The position numbers were made by a program, and so were the translations under genes. A DNA stretch of 64,000 nucleotides from Sclerodactyla briareus (Eukaryota; Echinodermata; Holothuroidea; Dendrochirotida; Sclerodactylidae): positions 62,001 through 126,000 of the forward strand of contig JAODTK010005611.1 in the NCBI GenBank assembly GCA_026419785.1, read 5' to 3'. How positions within the stretch are numbered: position 1 is the stretch's first letter; each line of letters starts with the position of its first letter. Positions 1 to 64,000 of the stretch are shown one piece after another. The notes under the pieces are model-generated. The model was not told the origin of the DNA. It did not search any database and saw nothing but the letters and a program-made list of their open reading frames with translations.

Positions 1-3000
1 GCAAAAACCAAGACTTGCCCTGAAATGTAAATGTTGTTAGTAAACGTGTGTTTTTGTTGTTTTTATCCCTGTGTAAAATGTGATGGTCCAGGTATTGCGG
101 AAATCGAGTTTCCACGAAAACCAACTAAAAGCGATGGTCAAGCAAACTCATACACACACAACGGGCGCGCAATAGGGTAACAATTACTGCTGGACCGACG
201 ATGACCCCACGATAGAATACCACTCAGTGGATACTCCTTATCAATCACAATCGTCACTCTAGTAACTGTTGCGATGGTGACCAGCAACAGCAAGTACTGG
301 TATAGAAAAAAATACAAATTGACTATACAATATCTCATTCGCCCTCGGGACCAGCGAGATGGAGGAAAACAAATTATCGAGATGAGTTGACCAGAACGGT
401 TCGTTTTCAAAGAGCGTCGCACATTGGGCCTTGTGGGAGGGGGGGGGGGGGAGTTAAATTGACCACGTTACACCATACTTGTCGTAAGATGTTATTAACT
501 TTATTATTAGGGTATGGACCAGTGGCGTATATGGGGTTCCTCAGCTTGGGGGCAGAGGGTATTACTTCCCGATTGACGTTTTCCCCTAAAACATGAAAGT
601 TTTTGGTAACAACGTTATCTGCATTGATCCCGACGGGCGTAACCTGTTTACCTTGCTTGTTTCCGGCGGAGTTTTCCAGGAGGCACTTTTCGCCCTGTCC
701 CACCGGGACAGATACGGCTTAAAACCGTTCTACAATTCTAACGACAACATGAACTACACGTGTAGTAATGTGCTGTTAGGCATTACAAACTATTGGGATA
801 TACACGGAACGTTAATTTCATAAGATGAAAATCTCACAGCTACAGAAACCTATTTACCATACAGTATAGGTCCTGATACTAATACGTTCATTCAGATTAA
901 TTATCTCGAATTCAAATAATGGAATGCGAATTACAAAGTTGATAACTCGCACGGCACTAAGATGTTTTCGTACACAACTACCAAGCAGGATGTATTCTAT
1001 TCATTAATGAAGCCGCATATCTTCCCATTGCATGCATATTCGTATCGGGTCTAATATGACCAGCAGTGATGCCAGGAGGTTATAACGTTTATTAAAATGA
1101 TAGCAGGTGGTGGTTGTAAACTGATTTTGTATTTTGGGAAAATAGAAATAGAACATGGAACATAATCCAGATGTTCCTGAGCAGTTTCGTCATTATTTTT
1201 TCGTCACTGATGTCAATAATGTGATTATTTCGATCTTAGCACCGAAATGCCGACTCTCATTCCTATTTGGGAGCTCGTTCATGACGTTTTTTTCGGTTCG
1301 TTCCTAATTTGAAACAAAACTGACGATTGGCCATGTATCCGCAATAATACAGTATTGCATGATGAACGGCAGTTTCCTCAGTACACGACAAGCGTTCAGC
1401 TAATCCACAGCGAGCATTGTTTGGTATTGTTAGTACAATGTAATCATTTTTCTCGCGCGTCCGATTGAAAAGGGGCCTTTTTTTAGAGTTTAATTTTAGA
1501 CAAATAAATATGTATAAATGTTTTGTCCCGGAGTGAACTACGCGCGTTTAACAAGCAATTCAAATGCTAAATAGCAGTATTCTCCCGTAGGTTTGAATAA
1601 AATTTTATCATTACTTTGATTTTTTTTAACCGGATGGTGAAAGATGTGCCTAATCAGTGGAATATTCGCTCTAGTCGAGACCGTGACTTTGTCAGGACTG
1701 GACTAGTAATATAAAATTGCGAGTTGATTGTTTACAATTTCCATCGGGGTACCATGTTCCCTCAAAAAAAGTATGTCTCCCCCGTGAATATTCGACGTTA
1801 ACTCTCTTGTCTCGCCTGAAATTGTTCTAGGAGGAACATGGTCGTCACTTTGAATTGAATTGAATCCACTTTTTTAACCGTTCTTGTCAAAAGACAAAAA
1901 GTAATGAGGCATAGTTCAAATTTGCAACATTGTATAACTGTGTCTGCGAAAGCAAGTATCAATAGTAATAAGGTTGGGGAGTTTGCGATGAAGCTACCAA
2001 AAGCTTGTGGAACGCAAACCCCCGAACGAAACACAAGCGAAAACGTACAATAACAATAACACAACGTTAACCTGCATCATCTTCCCCGCTAACATGCTAA
2101 CATGTACAGTTATAGAAATACGGTATGAAGTATACTTTTTATTTTTTTATTTCGCTTAAAACGGATCAAATAAGGATCGTTTTTCAAGTTATTCGGAAGA
2201 GTATTCCAAGGAGAAGGGGCCGGTATAGCTACTACGTTGGAATCTCAATCTACAATAGGGAATATAAAGTAGCGGAATGTGTCTAATATTGATACGAGAA
2301 ATATTTCTCCTAAACAGTTTGGCGATTGAATTGGGTACCAGAATTGTGATATACATGAAACATGAATACGGCAATACAATATTTGGACAATGCTCAGGAA
2401 GTTCAAGACATGGAGCTCTTTGAGAACTGGATCTGATGGTACTAAATAATGTACATTGGCAATATAGCGAACAAGCCGTTTCTGAATATTGAACCTGTTG
2501 ATTCAGCTGCGCGCGTGCCCCCAAACAGGGATACCGTAAGTTATTGCAGGCAAATAAGACAATTGTATTTTTCATAAGAATATGACGAGAAAGAACAGCT
2601 TTCAATCTATAGATCTACCGGCCGAACTAGGGACTCTCACAAACATATGGTTGTCGGGTGGATCAGTTCATTAAATACAATCTATATCCAGCCTAAAGAA
2701 AATTGTACACTTTGTCGTGTGTATGGGTCTGTCTGCTGCCCGTATGTATGTTTGTGTGTCGCGATATCTCCTAAACCGTGAGTGCCTCCATACTGAAATT
2801 TTGTGTGTGCAGCCGAAGACCATACTAATTTGCAAGATTAGCCGGAATTGTTTTTAATAGTGTTCTCATGATCGGCGCATTGGTGATGCAGTCTGGTGTT
2901 AATTACACGCTGAAATTGGTTACACTAACTCATCATAATTGGGGCGTAATATATGCTAATTAGATGCATAATACCTGTAGTTCTTTAAACCATGGATTGC

Positions 3001-3111
3001 AAGGTCTCGAACAGTTGATTCGAGGTCCCTGACTGCATTTAATTGAACTACTAGGCATCATGTGAATTCCTGAGGTTTATCAAATACATGAAACTTGCTA
3101 GATGTGGTCAT
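1..3111 (-). mobile_element. R1 block, left copy: degenerate non-LTR LINE and flanking repeat
   Basis: This block recurs in the same orientation at about 57,240-60,400, with many small indels between the copies. Part of it is the C-terminal end of a LINE reverse-transcriptase ORF on the minus strand: the 2,605-2,189 reading gives LSRHILMK and later SNSIAKLF-like text. Its sister copy preserves clearer pieces such as YNCLISPAMTYC and IQKRIVRHIANVHYLVPSDP, typical of the CR1/L2-type region after the RT palm. The segment from 1 to about 1,790 contains a poly-G run near 429-452 in both copies and no recognisable protein. Seen: the duplication and the minus-strand reading. Inferred: a CR1/L2-like clade. 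All frames are broken, so the copy is inactive. Confidence 0.7.
2189..2605 (-). pseudogene. LINE reverse-transcriptase C-terminal fragment (R1 left)
   Basis: The minus-strand reading begins AVLSRHILMKNTIVLFACNN and continues with YPCLG. It parallels the right-hand copy, whose less damaged frames read LSRHILMKIYNCLISPAMTY followed by CIPVWG. In CR1/Rex-like LINEs this stretch lies just after the RT palm, where members commonly have an L..LY..LV.P.L.YC...WG pattern. Frame changes occur roughly every 20-60 codons, so only pieces are readable. It is a remnant inside the R1 repeat and not a host gene. Confidence 0.6.
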
Positions 3112-3923
3112 ATTGAAACCTTATCCACCATTTACTGATCAACTGACTCCACCAGCCCGACAACCGAAGTTATTCAAGGTCATTGCACGCACCAGAAAAT
3201 TCAGAGAGCGACTCACAATTTGTTAAACTGCATTATTCTCTCACTAGTTTATCATACACCTTGACAAAAAGTACATGAAACGGATAGGAAAAGGTTTCTC
3301 TTTCAGAATATGTTAATAGTTTACTGTTAAAACAGCGACTTGTGGTTCAAAATGAGTCGTATTTAGGACGGACAGTCAGGCTGAAATTCTTGTTCTGAAT
3401 TGTAAGTTTAATTAAGTCTCCATACCTACAGTGTTGCCGCACTGTGTAGGCCATATGGGGGTTCACCACACAATTACATAATTACTTTTTCCGCTCAACG
3501 CTGAAATGACGGAGGTGAACGCTGCGCAACTGGTACGAGTTTTTAGACAACCGAGCTGAGATGTTTATCTTTTCACTGCCGCGTGAACTTAAGAGATGGA
3601 TGAATGGTTCTCGAGTTAGGAAGGAGTGAATAGAATAAAACATGGAAATTCGTTGATGTTACACAGTAATTTAGCTCAAAATGCCTTTTAGAAGTTAAAA
3701 ATGAGGAGGATAACTTGGAGTAAACAGGAATGTTTATGTATAAACAGGAAAGACCAAATTCACTCTTTCCCAATGCTGTGTGAACCTAGTTTGTAGCTAT
3801 CTGTTAAGTATCCGAAACATCTTGAGAAAGGTAAAAAGAGGGTTATTTTAGCCTCTTTGGGTGAATTTCCAGGTCGGGGGAAAAAGTGCACTTCCGGAGC
3901 CCGAGATTCAAGAAGGTTTCAAT
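3112..3923. mobile_element. 812-bp insertion with 11-bp terminal inverted repeats
   Basis: The segment begins ATTGAAACCTT and ends AAGGTTTCAAT, a perfect 11-bp inverted repeat. The otherwise homologous right-hand block (junction near 60,400) lacks it: there the sequence runs from GATGTGGT almost directly into CATTACGCAAC. The flanks allow a short duplicated CAT at the target, but the noise makes the target-site duplication uncertain. No transposase-like frame is present, so it looks like a non-autonomous DNA transposon. I do not recognise the superfamily. Confidence 0.6.
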
Positions 3924-4850
3924 ACGCATTACGCAACAAAGCGATACACTTTTGTCTCCTCGTTTTATAGTTTAGCTCCACTTATTATTTTATTACCTGT
4001 TTCCTGATCCGGAAAATGGCGTGGATACCTAATAATATAAACATAAATAGATAAACAAATAATAAATGCTAACTTATACATTCAGGAGCGTTATTTTGCA
4101 AGACACAGTCGCACGAATTTCCCTTGCGCCCTATACGCCCTCAGCGCCCTGACGCTGTCTCATTATGGCGGCAGCCACCGGTGAATAGAAAGTGTCATAA
4201 TTTGGAGATCCGTCACGGAAATGTTCGCAAGGCAGAAGTAATATCTATGGAACGCCGAATGCGCCAAGAATTATGCTGGCTTTACTCGTTCTGATACGTG
4301 AATCTTAAGCGGAATAACGACCTAGAAGTCATTATTCCACCTATGTTCCAAGCCACATAATGGGACAATTACTCGCTTTATCGCCAATAAAATCGGTGGA
4401 ACGGGAAATGATCGCCATTTGCGCCAAAATTCAAGGCAAGTCATGGGTTACACCCGTCAGTCTCAGTGCCGTAATAATGAGTTCCTGAGTTATTATTGCG
4501 CCGTCTCATGACGTAATAACGATTCTTTTTCAGTATTCGTTCGCTTCAGAGGGGGCATAATTAATGATTCAGTGCTCGTAATCCCGCCTATCCCCGTTCA
4601 TCATAATGACTTAGCTGGTCTTATTCCTCCTCTCTCAATTCATAATAATGACTTAATTACTCATTATCCGCCCGTCTCGATCCATAATAATGACTCGATT
4701 ACTCATTATGTTGCGGGAACGTAGACAGCATAATTTAGTTCTAGGTCGTTATTCCACTTGAAGATGACGTGTCAGAACGATTAGACGGCATAATGTTGGC
4801 GCATCCGCGGCTTATTCCGTTGAAATAATCAAATAATGATATATAGAAAT
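3924..4850 (+). repeat. R2: foldback arm made of about 42-bp units
   Basis: The same sequence recurs at 60,405-61,320 (direct) and 62,820-63,455 (inverted). From about 4,560 to 4,740 it is a tandem array with a period of 42 bp; the CATAATAATGAC motif starts at 4,641 and 4,683. Individual units contain ATAATGA, a 9-base spacer and TCATTAT, a 7-bp inverted repeat able to form a hairpin. Upstream, the units become more diverged but keep the ATAAT/ATTAT pairs. No coding capacity is seen. At this locus only one arm is present. Confidence 0.7.
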
Positions 4851-5972
4851 TGATGGCGCTGTTCCTGAATGGCTGCACATTTTCTGGCAAAGATACGAGG
4901 AGTAGGGAGGATTTGTTTCGATCAATATAAAATTGACCAGTATGAATGATGTGTATACTATCGTGTTATTTACGATGTGCACGTGCGGCTATGCTAAAGG
5001 CATGATCTGAACTTGACATTCTGCCTCTGTGCGCTCGGGTATACTGACAGGGTTCAAACTTATCTACATCTACACCTACATCAGAACGAAGCTGTGCTCT
5101 AATTATTGACAGCTATTCCAGGCGATTCTATGCAGTATAAATTTCTGGAGGTTCTGAAGGTGACTACATCAGATGCAGATATGGAGACAGGGGCGTCCAT
5201 CCGTTTTGAAGAGTGGGGGCACATCAAATGCAAATTACCATCTAAACCGCAGCGCCATCATCGGTTGGCGCGAAGCGTACGCCGAACAGTCAGTTTTCGA
5301 CCCTCCAGATCGACGGAGGGGAAACGGCCTCGCCAGGCCAATAGCACTCATCTACATGTGGATGTGAGTAAAGACAAAAAAAAGTGTCATTGTGCATACT
5401 AAGATGATTTACCTTATATCACGCATGGTATTTTTCATTACCTTTCCTACTCTGGCTTTGTTTGCATGGGATCCAGGGTTCTACCGAACGGTTCATGGTG
5501 GGATCGAAGGGAAAAGCCATAGGCGTACGGGACCATTCCAATTTGGCGGCAGAAAATGTGTACCGTACTTTTTCAAGCCAGTCATTGGAAACTACCGAAG
5601 CGCGCGGAACGCGCGAATTTTTTTCGTTTTCCGGGCATTCATCGGGAAGTTGACAAAAAAGTCACTTAGCCCTTTGCCCGCTTTACAAAGTTCAAACGAA
5701 ATTTTCGCCCGAATTTTTTCATCTCAGAAAAATAGGGGGGGGCAGTCTGCCCCCAAGGCTCCTGAAATTATTCGAGTGAACAAAATGATTGAAGCATTAC
5801 ATCGCATGATCGCATATTTAGCCTACAACGCCTGGACGAAAAACGCCATTGCGCGAAACACTCGGTATGAAAAATGGGTTAATTCTTCGACTTCGGCCCT
5901 AGTCGGGTCCAGATCTCCACCCGGCGTCAGCACCAGGAATTAGTGGACACAAGACAATTTCCAACGAAATTT
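4850..5972 (-). mobile_element. R3 element, copy 1 (inverted relative to the copies at 8.06 and 61.5 kb)
   Basis: This is the reverse complement of about 61,665-62,820. One end is recognisable as GGGGCGTCCATCCGTTTT near 5,190, the counterpart of the ...ATGAACGCCCCTGT end of the right copy. The plus-strand reading at 5,425-5,940 contains GIEGKSHRRTGPFQFGGRK, which is also readable on the minus strand of the 8.1-8.6 kb copy (GKSHRRTGSFKFGRRQ). Two diverged copies share a reading only because the DNA is homologous; no known domain is visible. The 5' part (4,980-5,190) is shared with 62,470-62,660. Confidence 0.65.
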
Positions 5973-6720
5973 GGCCAATTTTGCTTGTAAACACGATAAC
6001 TCCATCCACCTGTTTTTGATGAACCTCATACTTGGTATGTGAGTTCCCCATGATGAGAAAACAGTCATCAGCCATATTGTCTTGTGGTCAGGTCAAAGGT
6101 CATCTGAGGTCAAAAGAGGTCAAATTCTGAGAACCTTGTAAACACAATAAGTCCAGAATAGTTTGACAGGTCAAGTTGAAATGTGGTGTGTAGCTTTCTG
6201 ATGGGGAGTACAGGCACCCTATTGTTTTTGGTTCAGGTCATTTGTCAAAGTCTGAAAATGCGTGTAGAAATTAGTTCAGAATGATTGGTCTGATCAGGAA
6301 CTCTATTGGTTGATCGAAATAGCATCATTTTCTTTGGAAATTGGAAAATTGTCACCTTCAGCTACTCAAATCCATGAAACAGATACTTTTCCATTTTTTT
6401 CGTAGATTGGTAAACAAATCATCTAATTTTCGGTTACTTCATGTATGTGTACGTTCGTGTGCTTGTGTGCGAGCGAGCGTGCATGACGCCTGGCTGTGAA
6501 CACAATGAATCGACGTCACCTGGCTGGGTGTTGAAGCTCATACTTTTTTCGGGGTTCCCCATAATGAGTAAATGAACTCTATTGTTTTTCTGTCCGGTCA
6601 AAGATCATCTGAGGTCACCAGATTATCAAATCGGAAAGGCCTGGTGAACCGTCCTACACGCTTTGTTTGATCAAGCTAAAATTGTTATACAGCTTCCTTA
6701 CGAGAGATGTGTTCTCCACA
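5972..6720. repeat. R4 GGTCA-rich dispersed satellite
   Basis: The block includes AGGTCAAAGGTCATCTGAGG and units built on TTGTAAACACGATAA, CATACTTGGTATGTGAGTTC and CCCATGATGAG. It repeats itself within about 550 bp (5,985 and about 6,500). The same family occurs at 8,930-9,080, 30,220-30,420, 33,230-33,470, 39,130-40,150 and 63,470-64,000. A GT-rich microsatellite (6,440-6,480) is a regular part of the unit. No open frame of interest is seen. Confidence 0.75.
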
Positions 6721-8061: not shown

Positions 8062-8800
8062 CATGGGCGTCAACAGGTGGGCGACGGGGGGGGGGGGAAC
8101 ATGTCCCTCCTACTTTCGAGTGGGGGGAATTCATAAATCGTTTTTGCCCCCCACTTTTGTTCCGGACAGTAATACCAAATAAGGGATACGGACCGATTTT
8201 GTAATCACTCTAAACTGTCTTCTGAGTTTTTCGAATGTGAATTCGAGTAGCCAAAGGGCAACATTTTCAGTATTTCGCGCGCAATGGCGTTTTTTTCCCG
8301 GGGTTTTTAATATGCGATGTAATGTTTTCGAATCATTTTGTTCAAATAATTTCAAGAGCTTTGGAAGGCAGGCTGAGGCTCTCCCCCCTCCCACTCCCAC
8401 GGAAAAACTGCCTGAATTTTCTGCAGACTTCTTCGATAAAATGCCCCGAAACAGCCAAAACAAAAGCGCTGGTACTTTCCAATGACTGACTGACTGACTA
8501 AAATTCGGGCACAATTGTCTCCTCCCAAATTTGAATGATCCCGTACGCCTATGGCTTTTCCCTCGATCCCCCCAGGAACAGTTGTTCGGTAGACCCTTGG
8601 ATCCCATGCAAACAATGCCAGAGTAGAAACGGTAATAATAAAATACCATGTGTGGATATTCGGTAAATCATCTTATATGGCACAATGGGCAACTTTTCAA
8701 TTCCTTGGTACGCTTCGCGCCTTGGCGCTCCGGATGGTCATTTGCATTCGTCGACGACCCCCCCCCCCCCCACACTTTTCAAAACGGATCGACTGCGGCC
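8062..8800 (+). mobile_element. R3 element, copy 2
   Basis: It starts CATGGGCGTCAACAGGTGGG and ends in a C run followed by TTTTCAAAACGGATCGACTG. The copy at 61,488-62,470 has the same order and ends. It sits only 12 bp after the splice donor of the exon-like unit, so it appears to be inserted in an intron. Internally it has a poly-G run (8,087-8,098), a poly-C run (8,758-8,772) and a stretch whose minus strand reads like copy 1 on its plus strand. The short inverted GGGCGT at both ends suggests a DNA-transposon or MITE origin. No transposase is visible. Confidence 0.6.
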
Positions 8801-8929
8801 CCTTGTTGAAATATCCACTTCCTTTTCCATCATGTGCTATTGTTTTTATATTGTGATTATGTTTATTTTATATAGTCTTGTGGGAGTAAATCCGGTGTTC
8901 GCCTTGCGTGCATTATGGTTTCACGACCG

Positions 8930-29093: not shown

Positions 29094-29910
29094 GGTCTTG
29101 TTTTATTTCTTTCAACAATTTCCGTACTTTTTTAGAAATTAACCTCGCCGCAATTAGTGGAAACGAGTTACCTACAATCGAGAAGATCCCCCTCTTTCCC
29201 TGACGACTGAGTAGTGGGAGAGGGGGAGGGCGGGGGACACAATGCAGCGCGAGAAAAAATATCTGCTGTTTAGAAATGATATGAGTGGTATACTTCCACC
29301 CTTCACTTCGAATTTCATCATTGGGATAATATTAACCACCGGAAAAACAAGGTAGCCTACCAACTGAGACAGATCCGTTGGTTCACCCCAAAGAATCTGT
29401 TGCAGCCGGAATCAGTCTCAGGGCAGTGTGCTCGCAGCTAGCCCCATACCATCCGTTTCGGCAGGCTGTGTGGATGAAAAAAAAAATGAAAGTCTCAGTG
29501 GGTCTTGTTTTATTTCTTTCAACAATTTCCGTACTTTTTTAGAAATTAACCTCGCCGCAATTAGTGGAAACGGGTTACCTACAATCGAGAATATCCCCCT
29601 TTTTCCCTGACGGACTGAGTAGTGGGAGAGGGGGAGGGCGGGGGACACAATGCAGCGCGAGAAAAAATATCTGCTGTTTAGAAATGATATGAGTGGTATA
29701 CTTCCACCCGTCACTTCGAATTTTCATCATTGGGATAATATTAACCACCGGAAAAACAAGGTAGCCTACCAACTGAGACAGATCCGTTGGTTCACCCCAA
29801 AGAATCTGTTGCAGTCGGGATCAGTCTCAGGGCAGTGTTGCTCGCAGCTAGCCCCATACCATCCGTTTCGGCAGGCTGTGTGGATGAAAAAAAAAAATGA
29901 AAGTCTCAGT
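29094..29910 (+). repeat. Two-unit tandem duplication, period 407 bp, nearly identical
   Basis: GGTCTTGTTTTATTTC occurs at 29,094 and 29,501, and the whole intervening unit (including GGGAGAGGGGGAGGGCGGGG and GACAGATCCGTTGGTTCACC) repeats with only a handful of differences. The near-identity contrasts with the older repeats in the window and implies a recent event or an assembly duplication. Minus-strand frames such as PLISFLNSRYFFSRCIVSPA are shared by the two units and are not otherwise supported. Confidence 0.85.
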
Positions 29911-30219
29911 GTTCCCGACACACTCCCTAAAATTTACAGGCGAGTTCTATAGCCTCACCTATGTCGCGATGAGTGGTTAGTTTTGTTCAGGATTTATTTC
30001 AAACATCTTGATATGTGAGGTGGAAGATAAGGCTTTGCTAGTTAACAAATATCTAGAAGCATCAAAGTTGGCTATGCTATTTTTGGTTCAAAGTATCTAT
30101 AATCCCACAGATATTATCAGTCTGCAATCAGCTTTCTATGCTGAGATACTGTGACGCCACTATCAAGTGACCCCATGACCCCATAGACCCAACTGCCAAG
30201 TGGTAAAATACCCAGGCTC

Positions 30220-56315: not shown

Positions 56316-57239
56316 GTAAGTCTGGGTACAGCGATGGCCGTATCGGAGCCTACACCGATGACCAGGGTACGGAGGGAGGAGGTAGTGTTACTATATCGAA
56401 ATCTACGAAGAAGAGAATACTACATCGAAATCACAATCCGGAAGGAGGAACTAAGAGTGACAAAATTCAAGACTAAAGGCAAGATTCCATTTGTGCGTGA
56501 ATGCGGAGGCGAATAATTTTGAAAATCGCAGTTTGCGGAATACGGAAAAACTTTTTCAAAAGATGTAGGGTGATCCGGTATGACTCAAAATAGTAATAAC
56601 TCACAAAAATGACATAAATTGGCTTTATTAGGAAGGATATTGCATATAATCCGTTCGCGGGATGCGGGGCATTAATGTCGCATTGGTACGCGATTGATTT
56701 GCTTACTCTGCGCTCGTTCTATTTTTGGAATGGATTGTATTGCAAGGCTTACATCTGCAACCCGAATACAGCTTTTCTGGCACTTTCCAAATTATGGTCC
56801 CGTGAAAACAGGTTATGGTTTTACGCACCCGCATCCCGCGTATATGGAAATTTGCTTTATACCGTATCTTGTAATGGTCGGATGGAATTGCCTTATCGCC
56901 GAACAAGCGCTTACTGCAAGGTCCATATAACAATAGAAACGGCTACAGTGCGGGTCCGAAGGTTCGCTTTCTCATTATCAAGCTTCGTGGTTTTGAGGAA
57001 GAGGACATTTTTTTTTTATTATCGTGAAAAATCTCTAAAAATTACTTGGAGGAATAATTGTCTCACTTGCACAAAAATTCTCACACATTCAAGAAGCAGA
57101 CAATCAGGCCGACAAGGACGTTCTACCCCCTAAATCATACATTTTAGTAAGTGTTGCCACAAAGAAGAAACCGTTTGCGAAAATTCGAAATCAATCGGGT
57201 ATTGTAACAAACAATATGTGAGAAACAAAAAATCAGCAA
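56316..57239. other. No gene recognised
   Basis: The plus frame 56,675-57,133 has 152 codons but no recognisable domain or splice context. I leave it as unassigned. Confidence 0.4.
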
Positions 57240-60200
57240 AAAACCAAGCCTTGCCCTGAAATGAAATGTTTTAGAAAAACGTGGGTTTTGTTTTTATCCC
57301 TGTGTAAAATGTAAATGTGTCAAGGTATTGCCGAAATCCGAAGTTTTACGAAAACCAACTAAAATAGGATGGTCAAGCAAACTCGTACACACACACGGGC
57401 GCGCACTAGCGGACAATTCACCGCTGGACCGACGTGACCCCACGAGAGAATACCACTCAGTGGATACTTCCTAATCCAATCCAATCGTACCACTCTATAA
57501 CTGTTGCGATGGTGACCAGCAACAGCAAGTACCGGGATAAAAAAAATAACAGAATTGATATAACAGTATACATTCGCCCTCGGGACCAGCGGATGGAGGA
57601 AAACAAATATCGAGATGAGTGACCAGGACGGTTCGTTTTCAAGGCGTAGCACATTGGGCCTCGGTGGAGGGGGGGGGGGGGAGGGGGGAGTTAAATTGAC
57701 CACCGTTACAAACCTACTTGTCGTAAGAGGGGATGACTTAATTATTAGGGTATGACCATGGCGTAATGGGTGACTCAGCTTGGGGCAGAGGCGTATACTT
57801 TCCCCGAATTACATTTTCCCTAATCCGTTTGAAAGTGTTTTTGGTAACAATGTTCTCTGCATTATCCGGCGGGCGGTACACTGTTTACCTTGCTTGTTTC
57901 CGGCGGAGTTTTCCAGGAGGCACTTTTCGCCCTGGGCCCACCGGGACAGATACGCTTAAACGTTCTACAAAAAAATTCTACGGAACAAACATGAACTACA
58001 CGTGTGTAATGTGCTGTTAGGCATTACCAAACTATTGGGATATACACGAACGTTAATTTATAAGATGAAAACTCACAGCTACAGGAAACCTATTATGCCA
58101 TGCCAAGTATAGTTACCTAATTACTATATTTCATTCAGATTAATTATCTAGTAATTCAAATAATTAAATTCCGAATTAAAGAGTGAAATCGCACGGCACT
58201 AAGAGGTTTTCGTACACCAACTACCAAGCAGATGTATTATTCATTAATGAAGGCGCATATCTTCCCATAGCATGCAAGATTCGTATAGGGTCTAATATGA
58301 CAGCAGTGCAGTGATGCCAGGAGGTTATAACGTTTATTAAAATGATAGCAGGGGGTGGTTGTTACCTGATTTGGGTTTTGGGAAACATAGGAAAAATAGA
58401 ACATGGAAACCTAATCCAGATGTTTCCTGAGCCGTTTCGTCATCATTTTGTGTGTCACTGATGGTCAATAATGTGATTATTTCGATCTTAGCACCGAAAT
58501 CCCCGACTCTCATACCTATTTGGGAGCTCGTTCATGACGTTGTCTTTTTTTTTTCTCGTTCGTTTCCGTAATGAAACCCAAATGCACGAAGATTGGCCTG
58601 TAGTCGATAGTACAGTTTTTGCATGATGAACGGCAGTTACTCAGTAACGACAAGCGATTCAGCTAATCAAAGCGGGCATTGTTTGGTATTGTTAGTAACA
58701 ATGTAATCATTTTTCTCGCGCGTCCGATTGAAAAGGGCCTTTTTAGGTTTTTATTTTGGACAAAATAAAAATCTCGAAATGTTTTGTCCCAGAGTACAGC
58801 GTAACTAAGCCGTTAACAAGCAATTAAATGCTAAAATAGCAGTATTCTCCAGTTAGGTTTTGAATAAGTAAATTGATCTATTACTTTGATTTGTGTCTTA
58901 ACCGGGATGGTGAAAGATGTGCCTAATCAGTGAGATTGAAATATTCGCCTCTAGTAGAGACCGTGACTGTGTCTCAGGACTGCATTTAATCTCAAAATGC
59001 GAGTGATTGTTTACAATCGAGCCGGGGTCCCAGGTTCCTAAAAAAAAGTATGTTTTGCCCCCTGAATCTTCGACCGTAACTCTTCTTGTCTCCATGAAGT
59101 TTGTTCTTGGAGAAACATACGTAGTACACTTTGAATTGAATTGAATCCACTTATTTCAACCGTTTTAGTGCAAAGACAAAACGTAATAAGGCATATAGGT
59201 CACATTGGCCACCTGGAATAATTGTGTCTGCGAAAGCAAGTATCAATTAGTAATGAGGTTGGGGAGTTGGGAGAAGTACCAAAAGCTTGTGAACGCAAAC
59301 CCCGGACGAAACACACGCGAAACGTACAAGAACAATAACACGCGTTAACCTGAGTTACATCCTCGCTATTGGCTAACAGTACAGTTAAAGAAATACGGTA
59401 TGAAGTATACCTTTTCATTTTTATTTCGCTTAAACGGATCAAATAAGGATCGTTGTATTTTCCAAGTTAAGGAGAGTATTCTAGAGAGCGGGCCGGATAG
59501 CTACCACTTGGAATCCCATCGACAATAGGAGGGAATTATAAAAGTCGGAATTGTGTCTGTATTGACACGAGAAAAATTTTATCCTAAACAGTGGAGATTG
59601 AATTGGGGATACAGAATGTGTGATAGAATGCAAAACAGGATAGGTCTGGCAGTACACTATTTGTACAATGCTCAGGAAGTTCGAGACATAATGGAGCTCT
59701 TTGAAAACTGGATCTGATGGTACTAAATAATGTACATTGGCAATATGACGAACAATCCGTTTCTGAATATGAAACAACCTGTTGGTTCAGCTGGTGCCCC
59801 CAAACAGGGATACAGTAAGTCATTGCAGGCGAAATGAGACAATTGTATATTTTCATAAGGATGTGACGAGAAAGAACAACTTCCAACGTATAGAATGCCG
59901 GCGAACTTAGCGACTCTACCACAAACATATGAGTTGTGTGGTGTGATCAGGTTAAATTTGCAATCTATAGCCAGCCCAAGAAAATTGTACACTTTGTCGT
60001 GTGTATGTGTCTGTCTGCTCAGTTGTTGTTTGTGTGTCGCGATTATCTCAAAACCGTGAGTGCCTCCATACTGAAATTTTGTGTGCACGGACGAAGACCA
60101 TACTAATTTGCATAGATTTGCATTATTCAAGAATTAGCCCGGAATTGTTTGTATAAGATGTCTCATGATCGGCGCATTGGTGATGCAGTCCGGTGTTGAT

Positions 60201-60404
60201 TACACCCTGAAATTGTGCACGAACTTATCATTTTGGGGCGTAATCTATGCTAATTCGATGCCTAATAACATGTAGTTACTTTAAAATGGATTGCCAATGG
60301 CTCGAACCGTTGATTCGAGGTCACTGAATGCCATTTAATTTGACCAATATGCAATTATGTGAATTCCTGAGGTTTATCAAATACATGAAACTTGCTAGAT
60401 GTGG
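57240..60404 (-). mobile_element. R1 block, right copy: degenerate LINE and flanking repeat
   Basis: It is collinear with 1-3,111 over its whole length (shared landmarks: the poly-G run at 57,668, GGTGACCAGCAACAGCAAGT, CGCGCGTCCGATTGAAAAG). The LINE part is clearer here. Minus-strand pieces are NFLGLAIDCKFNLITPHNSY (about 60,005) with VCGRVAKFAGILY, LSRHILMKIYNCLISPAMTY then CIPVWG (about 59,870-59,810), and IQKRIVRHIANVHYLVPSDP with VFKELH (about 59,770-59,700). These are the CR1/L2-type RT thumb and connection regions. It is joined directly to R2, with the 812-bp insertion of the left copy absent. Confidence 0.75.
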
Positions 60405-63400
60405 TACATTACGCAACAAAGCGATACACTTTTTGTCGCCTCGTTTTATAGTTTAGCTCCACTTATTATTTTATTACCTGTTTTCTAATCCGGAAAATGG
60501 CGTGGATACCCACATAATATAAACATAAATAAATAAACAAATAATAAATGCTGACTTATATATTCAGGGGCGTTATTTCGCAAGGCACAGTCACACGAAT
60601 TTCCCTTGCGCCTTATACGCCCTCAGCGCCCTGACGCTGTCTCATTATGGCGGCAACCATCGGTGGATAGAAAGTGTCATTATTTGGAGATCCGTCACGG
60701 AAATGTTCACGAGGCAGAAGTAATATTTATGGAACGCCGAATGCGCCAAAAATTATGCTGGCTTTACTCGTTCTGATACGTGAATCTTAAGCGTAATAAC
60801 GACCTAGAAGTCATTATTCCACCTATGTTCCAAGCCACATAATGAGAAAATTGCACGTGTTATCGCTAATAAAATCGGTGGACGGGAAATGATCGCCATT
60901 TGCGCCAAAATTCAAGTCAAGTCATGGTGTTACCTGTCAGTTTTCAGTGTCGTAATAATGAGCTCCTTAGTCATTATTGCGCCGTCTCATGCCGTAATAA
61001 CGGCTTCTTTTCTCATTATTCGTTTTCTTTCGGAGGGCATAATATGACTTAGTTGCTCGTAATCCCGCCTATCCCCGTTCATCATAATGACTCAGCTGGT
61101 CGATCCTTATCCTCCTCTCTCAATTCATTATAATGACTTAGTTTCTCGTTATTCTGCCTATTCCGATTTATAAAAAATGACTTCATTACTCATTATTCCG
61201 CCCGTCTCGATCCCCGAATAATGAACTCGATTACGCATTATGTTGGCCTGACGTAGACAGCATAATAAGTTCTAGGTCGTTACTCCGCTAACGCGTGTCA
61301 GAAGAAGTGAGAACTGCATAATGACTAGAAGTAAGTTCTTATTGCACGTAAAATTGGTGGCGCTTTTTTCAAAAATGAAGCGCTCTCCCGGGAATGAAAA
61401 GAGGAGGGTTTTCAATGCTCAATTTTTCGTTGGAAACCGGTATGGCTTCCTGGAGACCCAGATCCCTCAAGATTCTCTCCATGCATGGGCGTCAACAGGT
61501 GGGGGACCGGGGGGGAGATGGCCCCCCCCCCACTGTTTTGTGGAAAGGGGGTGATAGCTAGCGTTTGTCTCCCCCCCCCCTTCCCGGACCTAATAAGAAA
61601 TAATAGCACATCCCGATGTTGTATTACTCTACACTGATTCATTTGTTGTCTAACCAAACAATAATCGTTGGAACTTGTCTTGAGTCCACTAATTCCTGGT
61701 GCTGACCCCAGGTGGAGATCTGGACCCGACTAGGGCCGAAGTCGAAGGATTACTCATGTTTCATACCGAGTGTTTTCGCGCACGGGCGTATTTCGTCCAG
61801 ACGTTGTAGGCTACTAAAATATGCGATGTAATGCTTCAATCATTTTGTTCACTCGAATAATTTCAGAAGCCTTGGGGGCAGACTGCCCCCCCCCCTATTT
61901 CTCTGAGATGAAAAATTCGGGCGAAAATTCGTGGAAACTTTATGAAAGGAAAAGGCAAAGTGAATTTTTTGCAGACTTGCCCGAGAAAATGCCGTAAAAC
62001 TGCACAAAAAAATTCACGCACCGTAGTTTTCCAAATGACTGACTTTGAAAAAGTCCCGGTACAAATTTTCTGCTCCCAAATTGGAATGGTCCCGTACGCC
62101 TATGGCTTTTCCCTTCGATCCCACCAGGGACCGTTTCTGTGACCCCTGGATCCCACGCAAATAAAGCCGAGTAGGAAAGGTAATGAAAAATACCGCATGT
62201 GGATCATTAGGTAAATGCATCTTAGTATTCACACTGAACAACTTTTTGGTTTGTCTTTTACTCAAATCACACATGTGGATGGGTGCTATCGAGCCTGGCG
62301 AGTGCCGTTTCCGTCGATCTGGAGGGTATGAAAATCTGAATTTTTCGTCGTACGCTTCGCGCCAACCGATGGTGGCGCTCCGGTTAGACGTTATTATGTT
62401 GCATTCGATGTGTCCCCCCCCCCCCCATTTTCAAACACGGATGAACGCCCCTGTCTCCATATCTGAATTGATGTAGTCCCCTCCAAGAAACCTCAGAAAT
62501 GTATTACTGCATGAATCGCCTGGAATAGCGTCACAAAAGTTAGAGCACAGCTTCAGTTCTGATGAAGGTGTAGATGTAGATAAGTTTGAACCCTGTCAGT
62601 ATACCCGAGCGCACAGAGGCAGAATGTCAAGTTCATGAATCATGCATGTAGCATAGCCGCACTGTGCACTCCTAATAACACTATGTTATTCTATATTAAT
62701 CCATCATTCATACTGGTCATTTTATATAGATCGAAACAAATTCTCCCTACTCCTCGGACTTTGGCCAGAAAATGTGGCAGACTTCAGGAACAGCGCCATC
62801 AATTTCTATATATCATTATTTGATTTATTTCAACGGAATAAGACGCGAAATGCGCAGAAAATTATGCCGGTCTAACTCGTTCTGACCGTATTTGCAAAGC
62901 GAATAACGACCAAGAACTCATTATGCTGTCTACTTTCCAGGCCACATAATGAGTAATCGAGTCATTATTATGGATCGAGACGGGCGGACATAACGAGTAA
63001 GTCATTTTTATAAATCGGAATAGGCAGAATAACGAGAAAGTCATTATTATGAATTGAGAGAGGAGGAATTAGGACCAGCTAAGTCATTATGATGAACGGG
63101 GATAGGCGGGATAACGAACAACTAAGTCATTATTATGCCCTCTGAAAGAGACGAATAATGAGAAAAGAAGTCGTTATTACGGCATGAGACGGCGCAATAA
63201 TGACTGAGGAACTCATTATTACGGCACTGAAGACTGACGGGTAACACCGTGACTTGCCTGGAATTTTGGCGCAAATGGCGATCATTTTTCGTCCACCGAT
63301 TTTATTGGCGATAAAACGAGCAATTTTCTCATTATGTGGCTTGGAACATAGGTGGAATAATGACTTCTAGGTCGTTATTCCGCTCAAGATTCACGTATCA

Positions 63401-63455
63401 GAACGAGTAGAGCCAGCATAATTTTTGGAGCATTCGGCGTTCCATAAATATCCTT
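60405..63455. mobile_element. Foldback-like element with 42-bp-unit arms
   Basis: Left arm 60,405-61,320 and right arm 62,820-63,455 (inverted) consist of the R2 sequence, including the units CATAATAATGACT..TTACTCATTAT and CCGCC(T/C)(G/A)TCTCGATTC, period about 42 bp. Between the arms are an R3 copy (61,488-62,470) and its flanks. Long inverted repeats made of short tandem units are the defining feature of Drosophila FB and sea-urchin TU foldback elements. No transposase is seen in this copy. The outermost arm ends are CATTACGCAACAAAGCGATA-side at left and CCATAAATATCC-side at right; they are not equal in length, so one arm is truncated. Confidence 0.7.
61488..62470 (+). mobile_element. R3 element, copy 3, inside the foldback element
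   Basis: It starts CATGGGCGTCAACAGGTGGG and ends after a C run (62,414-62,428) with ATGAACGCCCCTGT. The order matches copy 2, with a poly-G/poly-C pair near the start (61,510-61,535; 61,571-61,580). The stretch 61,680-62,200 on the minus strand matches copy 1. The ends GGGCGT..../....ACGCCC are an imperfect inverted repeat. Confidence 0.6.
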
Positions 63456-64000
63456 TTTTTTATTCTTGATGAATTCAAAGATCTAGGCATCATGCCATTG
63501 TCGTCTGTTGTGTGCATGTGCGTGTGTATGTATGTATGTGACGTCCAGCTTGTAAACACGATAAAAACTGACCCACCTGATGGTTGATAGCTCATTCTTG
63601 GTATGTGTGTTCCCCATAATGAGTACATGAACCTTATTGTTTGGGGGTCAAGTCAACATAGGTCAAAGTCCAGAAGATTGGTTTTATCAGGTTGAAATTT
63701 GGTGGGCAGCTTTCTTATAGAGAGTACAGAAACCCTATCCTATTTGGTTCAGGTCGGAGTGAATTTTGGTCAAAATAGACAATTTGTGAAAACTAAATTT
63801 GGCCAACTTTGGCTTGTAAATCTCCATCCACCTGTTTGGATGAACCTCATACTTGGTATGTGAGTTCCCCATGTTGAGTACCTCACAATCTGGTTTTGTG
63901 GCCAGGTCAAAGGTCATCTGAGGTCAACAGAGGTCAACAGAGGTCAAATTCTGAGACACAATAAGTCAGAATAGTTTGACAGGTCAAGTTGAAATGTGGT
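63456..64000. repeat. R4 satellite, running off the window
   Basis: It contains two R4 units: CTTGGTATGTGTGTTCCCCA at 63,596 and CTTGGTATGTGAGTTCCCCA at 63,851. The second continues into AGGTCAAAGGTCATCTGAGG at 63,904, matching 5,985-6,190 to the last base. So the end of the window is still within the duplicated block, and the true extent of the duplication is unknown. Confidence 0.75.

Follow-up and report, generated by a model that had tools for sequence, protein, structure and literature searches.

Transposons with a foldback architecture and arms of short tandem units are known in Drosophila (FB) and in the sea urchin (TU), and transposons of the P superfamily make 8-bp target-site duplications. 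Three further systems with repetitive arms have been described. Tm1 of root-knot nematodes (Mutator/Foldback) has composite arms of variable length made of tandem units of ~14 bp, asymmetric end motifs, 9-bp target duplications and MITE-like forms, and most of its copies are without a transposase, a MULE transposase being carried by one element (PMC3169594). Galileo of Drosophila, a member of the P superfamily with a P-type THAP transposase, has long, internally repetitive arms (with ~210-bp units in one subfamily), 7-bp duplications, chimeric copies and recombination between copies (PMC3573991, PMC3688188). The tandem repeats of its arms were shown to hold additional transposase-binding sites, and in the same 2013 text such a role for the repeats of Foldback and Phantom is stated to be untested (PMC3688188). 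Tetris of Drosophila virilis has 220-bp tandem repeats in arms of up to 1.7 kb, 8-10 bp duplications, a variable non-coding middle and no known transposase (PMC4079207).

Here we describe an element, E1, that very probably belongs to an old family of foldback-type DNA transposons which appear to be non-autonomous and whose arms may also recombine with each other. The family has foldback architecture and looks like a new one, set apart from FB, TU, Tm1, Galileo and Tetris by their descriptions.

Results

Limits and parts of the element

The window analysed, a stretch of 64,000 nucleotides (C2854:62001-126000 in the 319-Mb assembly of the host's own genome; coordinates below are those of the window), carries E1 at 60,728-63,446, with a length of 2.72 kb. 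Its left arm (60,728-61,345, plus strand) opens with the terminus TATGGAACGCCG, delimited in an alignment of 21 arms and followed by palindromic units at a spacing of 42-44 bp, and its right arm (62,843-63,446, minus strand) faces it in the opposite direction. The arms, each ~0.6 kb long, align in inverted orientation (60,723-61,322 with 63,451-62,861) over 609 columns at 88.7% identity (E = 0 when the region was compared with the window by BLAST), which agrees with the lower end of the 0.6-0.9 kb originally given for them and leaves the 0.9-kb figure without a counterpart.

Between the arms lies a middle domain of ~0.5 kb in two parts, to which no strand was assigned: X (61,346-61,483), which adjoins the arms in the fetched copies and has at least 41 matches in the genome, with 40 of 60 candidates scored, and SPACER (62,462-62,842), with 24 such matches (23 of 23 candidates scored). 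The two parts are separated by an insert, R3, described below. The total length of the element varies from 1.6 to 3.6 kb across eight copies. On either side of E1 stands the same pentanucleotide, AATAT, at 60,722-60,726 and at 63,447-63,451 (both on the plus strand).

The original prediction had let the element span 60,405-63,455, and this had to be corrected at its left side, where 60,407-60,721 (plus strand) is host flank. Since the genome contains just three matches to 60,407-60,716 (three of three candidates scored), namely the locus itself, a duplicate at 3,927-4,240 and a weak third locus (L060) in which the similarity stops within ~20 bp of the element start, we placed the left limit at 60,728. 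The alternative that 60,407-60,721 is an outer domain of the element was ruled out by this copy number together with the diverged paralogue. The right side of that paralogue is unlike the right flank of E1, hence it does not provide a clean empty site, and none was found for the element as a whole.

Copies across the genome

The family counts at least 74 distinct arms at no fewer than 64 places in the 319-Mb genome, E1 and its paralogue E2 included. These numbers are lower bounds, obtained by pooling the 40 top-ranking rows from each of three queries (arm, terminus and inner arm), which gave at least 55, 40 and 41 matches with 40 of 209, 180 and 188 candidates scored, respectively. Of the 21 loci whose flanks were fetched at length, BLAST searches with arm, X, R3 and SPACER found 13 to have opposed arms, in pieces that measure at least ~150 bp (L023, L061-L065, L067, L068, L070-L072, L074 and L075), and coordinates alone place opposed arms at four more places (C1452, C2231, C2719 and C329). 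The original prediction had made the foldback reading depend on inverted pairs of the array being present elsewhere, and this is what these loci provide. As L074 and L075 have a flank in common and are probably one insertion that was duplicated, the 13 loci correspond to 12 independent places. Seven of the remaining eight loci carry arm sequence on one strand only, apart from short inverted-repeat pieces within the arm, and L078 retains a 49-bp remnant of a second arm; the limits of the fetched stretches may have trimmed some of these eight.

A further 34 arm loci (L009-L043, L023 excepted) were fetched with short flanks and stand outside the count of 21; one of them, L039, is also two-armed, and L041 repeats L061. 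The opposed arms of L039 (C2503:153980-155510) are only ~115 bp apart with no match to X or SPACER between them, which makes this locus a middle-less form. In L067, L071 and L076, extra R3-X-arm blocks follow in tandem past the second arm, a pattern suggestive of unequal exchange.

Terminus and target-site duplication

In the alignment of 21 arms, mean agreement is 0.39 outside the element, 0.92 in the 45 bases that start with TATGGAACGCCG and 0.87-0.89 thereafter, so that the copies have a sharp terminus in common. The 45-base terminus is better conserved (p 0.0006), but the rows were fetched by similarity to that very end. The base C occurs at position -6 before the end in 15 of 28 cases, an observation made post hoc and uncorrected for the number of positions inspected.

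Target-site duplications were assessed in 11 copies by matching the sequence that immediately precedes the left end to that which immediately follows the right end, the right flanks being permuted 5000 times. At a length k of 5, 26 of 55 positions agree (p 0.0008), and at k=6, 33 of 66, a value reached in 0 of 5000 permutations. Neither the 9-bp duplication of Tm1 (k=9, p 0.06, rising to 0.34 with a slack of ±1 base) nor, without slack, the 7-bp duplication of Galileo or the 8-bp duplication of the P superfamily (p 0.27 and 0.37) was recovered, and k=10 was not significant either. When ±1 base of slack was allowed, 45 of 55 positions agreed at k=5 (29.1 under the null) and all lengths from 4 to 8 became significant, which for 7 and 8 is as expected from a core of 5-6 bp. 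We thus read a target duplication of ~5 bp.

The cut points of this comparison were chosen manually, the ends being diverged. L063 and L023 have diverged right ends and were kept in the set of 11, C329 was dropped because its left end was not found in the fetched stretch, and the right cut point of E1 was shifted by one base after its sequence had been viewed. In a set of eight copies, agreement before this shift was 22/40 at k=5 and 23/48 at k=6, and after it 20/40 (p 0.008) and 27/48 (p 0.0015), with k=3 and 4 also below 0.05.

Palindromic units and nested inverted repeats

The inverted repeat proposed for the individual units (ATAATGA, nine bases, TCATTAT) was confirmed: searched as ATAATGA-N7..11-TCATTAT with at most one mismatch, it has 15 matches in the window, and all 15 fall within the arms of the two copies, E1 at 60.7-63.4 kb and E2 at 4.2-6.0 kb. 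At two mismatches the arms hold 23 of 27 matches, and at three 38 of 79. In a sample of 23 arms (three from the window and those of 20 of 35 fetched arm loci), we counted 135 palindromes with up to two mismatches, or about six per arm, whereas ten shuffles yielded 0.6 on average and never more than 2. The loop measures nine bases in 74 of the 135 and eight in another 40. Half-site variants are common (ATAACGA in 18 and TCGTTAT in 33 of the 135), as would be expected if CpG decay had produced TG/CA.

The spacing of the palindromes peaks at 42-44 bp, in keeping with the 42-bp tandem units first proposed, which are by now so worn that Tandem Repeats Finder detects a single array of 2.3 copies (period 43, 63,038-63,137, 78%). 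The number of units per arm varies: E2 is without a unit that both arms of E1 possess, and L040 and L042 contain repeated arm segments. The half-sites are conserved at 0.887 and the rest of the arm at 0.868, a difference that is not significant (p 0.25); selection on the palindromes was therefore rejected as a finding, and a role in binding draws no support from conservation. Single-strand folding of one arm stretch gave a modest signal (z -2.6, with 3 of 100 shuffles folding equally well), which we do not count in favour of the palindromes.

Hairpins had been proposed at two scales, within the unit and between the arms; both are present and a third, within the arm, is to be added, so that inverted repeats are nested at the scales of unit, arm and element. 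An inverted match of ~110 bp at 77-78% identity lies within the arm, and in E1, in E2 and in seven other loci the SPACER-side arm carries, at its inner end, a diverged version of the outer terminus in inverted orientation, the seven having been picked for a terminus-like match already found there. These two features, together with the closely spaced arms of L039 without X or SPACER, are what one would expect if each arm were a complete palindromic MITE of ~0.6 kb and two of them had landed in opposite orientation around other DNA. We consider such a composite origin improbable: in many copies X and SPACER keep constant positions between the arms, indicating that arm, middle and arm move together, and no arm proved to stand alone among those whose far side had been fetched. 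A single foldback-type element accordingly remains our preferred reading.

An insert in the middle domain

R3 occupies 61,484-62,453 of E1 (plus strand, an arbitrary orientation taken as in the solo copy), starting with CATGGGCGTC and ending with GAACGCCCCTG. It is bordered by an 8-bp duplication, TCTCCATG at 61,476-61,483 and TCTCCATA at 62,454-62,461 (both plus strand), with seven of the eight bases identical. Its termini, CATGGGCGTCAA and CAGGGGCGTTCA, form short and imperfect inverted repeats. A copy of R3 also stands alone at 8,062-8,803 (plus strand), between the flanks GTTGAAAC and GTTGAAAT. Elements of the hAT superfamily have CAGGG-like terminal inverted repeats and make 8-bp target duplications; the 8-bp duplication and short ends of R3 fit an element of this type, and we call it hAT-like on these sequence features. 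Two frames derived from R3 were scanned and gave no Pfam match.

Four of the six R3-free loci printed (L061, L062, L064 and L068) show X joined to SPACER as in an empty site, with the 8-bp sequence in single copy, most clearly so in L062; in the other two, L070 and L080, the joined junction is not clear. In eight further loci (L020, L027, L063, L067, L069, L071, L072 and L076), at least one border of R3 lies no more than 10 bp away from that junction, and in E2 R3 adjoins the SPACER side of this target. The proposal that the element had captured R3 as its middle is thus borne out by the target duplications and the empty sites. Because the site is empty in four copies and filled in eight others, R3 appears to have spread as cargo, and the simplest account is one insertion of R3 followed by amplification.

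A second copy within a segmental duplication

Positions 3-3,108 of the window match 57,239-60,405, and with the fetched neighbouring sequence this similarity extends to a segmental duplication of ~20 kb on the same contig (-7,927 to 11,870 versus 44,204 to 70,807), in blocks that are colinear, interrupted by gaps and 76-88% identical. E2 (4,246-5,967, plus strand) sits at the place paralogous to that of E1 and comprises an arm, SPACER and part of R3, without the far half. The sequence related to E1 that was originally noted at 3,924-5,972 as a single-arm version is therefore real, and what falls is its independence: it is a truncated paralogue of the same insertion, and an independent insertion of E2 was ruled out by the duplication. 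Reading from the shared flank, E1 runs arm-X-R3-SPACER-arm and E2 arm-SPACER-R3, so the middle is inverted in one relative to the other. E2 ends inside R3, where it joins sequence that begins ~330 bp past the element in the copy of E1.

The gap before E2 (3,109-3,926) holds another insert. It measures 810 bp (3,113-3,922), has the ends TTGAAACCTT and AAGGTTTCAA between TA dinucleotides and is missing from the duplicate locus; it looks like a MITE of the Tc1/mariner type. On the right flanks of both copies (63,548-64,000 and 5,983-6,620) lie diverged, GGTCA-rich repeats.

One could regard E1 as a non-mobile inverted duplication, produced on the spot by rearrangement of a sequence that, like E2, had a single arm, given that E2 is one-armed and that both copies lie within the segmental duplication. 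We find this scarcely credible, as opposed arms with the same middle recur elsewhere, with short target duplications and with flanks that differ except in L074/L075, and as E2 is cut inside R3, which is what a deletion predicts. We therefore continue to treat E1 and E2 as copies of a mobile element, split by duplication from one insertion.

The middles of E1 and E2 are 82.6% identical and their left flanks 81.6%. The flank immediately adjoining the element (60,407-60,722) is 94.3% identical between the copies versus 81.6% further out, which a single duplication does not account for; the excess may perhaps stem from gene conversion. Measured over 60,360-60,722, identity between the duplicates is 93-98%, and ~82% in the remainder.

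The opposite orientation of the two middles could also have arisen by exchange with another copy of the family, and not between the arms of one copy. We hold this to be possible, if somewhat doubtful. The trees are star-like, E1 and E2 do not form a supported pair, and in the SPACER tree E1 groups weakly with L071, all of which would suit such an exchange. Yet among 12 rows compared, E1 and E2 are mutually closest (84.4%, for E2 by a small margin, its next row being at 83.6%), and the divergence of their middles is similar to that of their flanks. We favour exchange between the arms of one copy: opposite middles in two copies of one insertion split by duplication are as such an exchange would leave them.

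Coding content and other features of the window

The window contains 127 stop-to-stop frames that reach 80 aa or more; ten of them were chosen and scanned, and none of the ten attained the Pfam cut-off. Three of the ten lie within E1 or E2; they gave no Pfam match and no transposase was seen, on which grounds E1 probably relies on a transposase supplied from outside. In L023 and L065, which have long middles, the frames reach only 90-130 aa, as judged by eye. Neither an Rfam match at gathering score nor a tRNA came up in the window, and a distant search of plasmids and a search for one exact pattern in viral contigs returned nothing. Two minus-strand frames without a Pfam match above cut-off (59,484-59,786 and 2,248-2,502) resemble, in their motif, the end of a non-LTR reverse transcriptase. 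At 29,094-29,911 lie two tandem copies of a 409-bp unit that are 97% alike.

Discussion

E1 and its relatives combine long inverted arms, a variable number of repetitive units in these arms, a variable middle and dispersed copies with target duplications, as foldback elements do. The likeness to FB and TU that was first proposed holds for the general architecture and not for the duplication, whose ~5 bp differ from the lengths in those elements; compared by description, the family also departs from FB and TU in the sequence and length of its unit. It resembles Tm1 in its variable arms with tandem units, in MITE-like forms and in copies that lack a transposase. It is unlike Tm1, with its asymmetric end motifs and the MULE transposase of one element, in its palindromic units of ~42 bp, in its ~5-bp duplication and in that no transposase was seen. 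Long repetitive arms, chimeric copies and recombination between copies are likewise common to the family and Galileo, which are distinguished by the ~42-bp units, by the P-type transposase of Galileo and again by the ~5-bp duplication. With Tetris it has tandem-repeat arms, a variable middle without coding capacity and the lack of a known transposase in common, and the two differ in the repeat, in the duplication and in the lengths of the arms. Among the titles and beginnings of abstracts searched by word, which can reveal a description but not a sequence, there was no foldback family with this unit. The family thus works like Tm1, Galileo and FB, but in view of its ~5-bp duplication we file it with the architectural group only.

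We infer a mechanism in which a transposase from another element would recognise the terminus, the palindromes would be used as repeated transposase-binding sites that pair the two arms, and the element would be cut out and inserted with a stagger of ~5 bp. By analogy with Galileo, the palindromes are likely to be dimer sites, and a period of 42 bp, about four helical turns, would set them on one face of the DNA. The arms would recombine with each other as well; within a single copy, this would have flipped the middle, and a later deletion would have removed the far half of E2. A bolder proposal, which we regard as less likely than not, is that the ~5-bp duplication marks a transposase group not yet described, and that the palindrome arrays, phased at four turns, delimited by inverted copies of the terminus and so part of inverted repeats nested at three scales, serve both to pair the arms and to flip the middle.

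In this family a fixed, palindromic and phased unit is available in numerous copies, and the site for R3 is empty in some copies and filled in others. One insertion with its middle in both orientations provides a natural pair, and the ideas of binding sites and of recombination between arms are testable on this material. The history of R3 suggests that a non-autonomous element can spread an element of another superfamily as its cargo.
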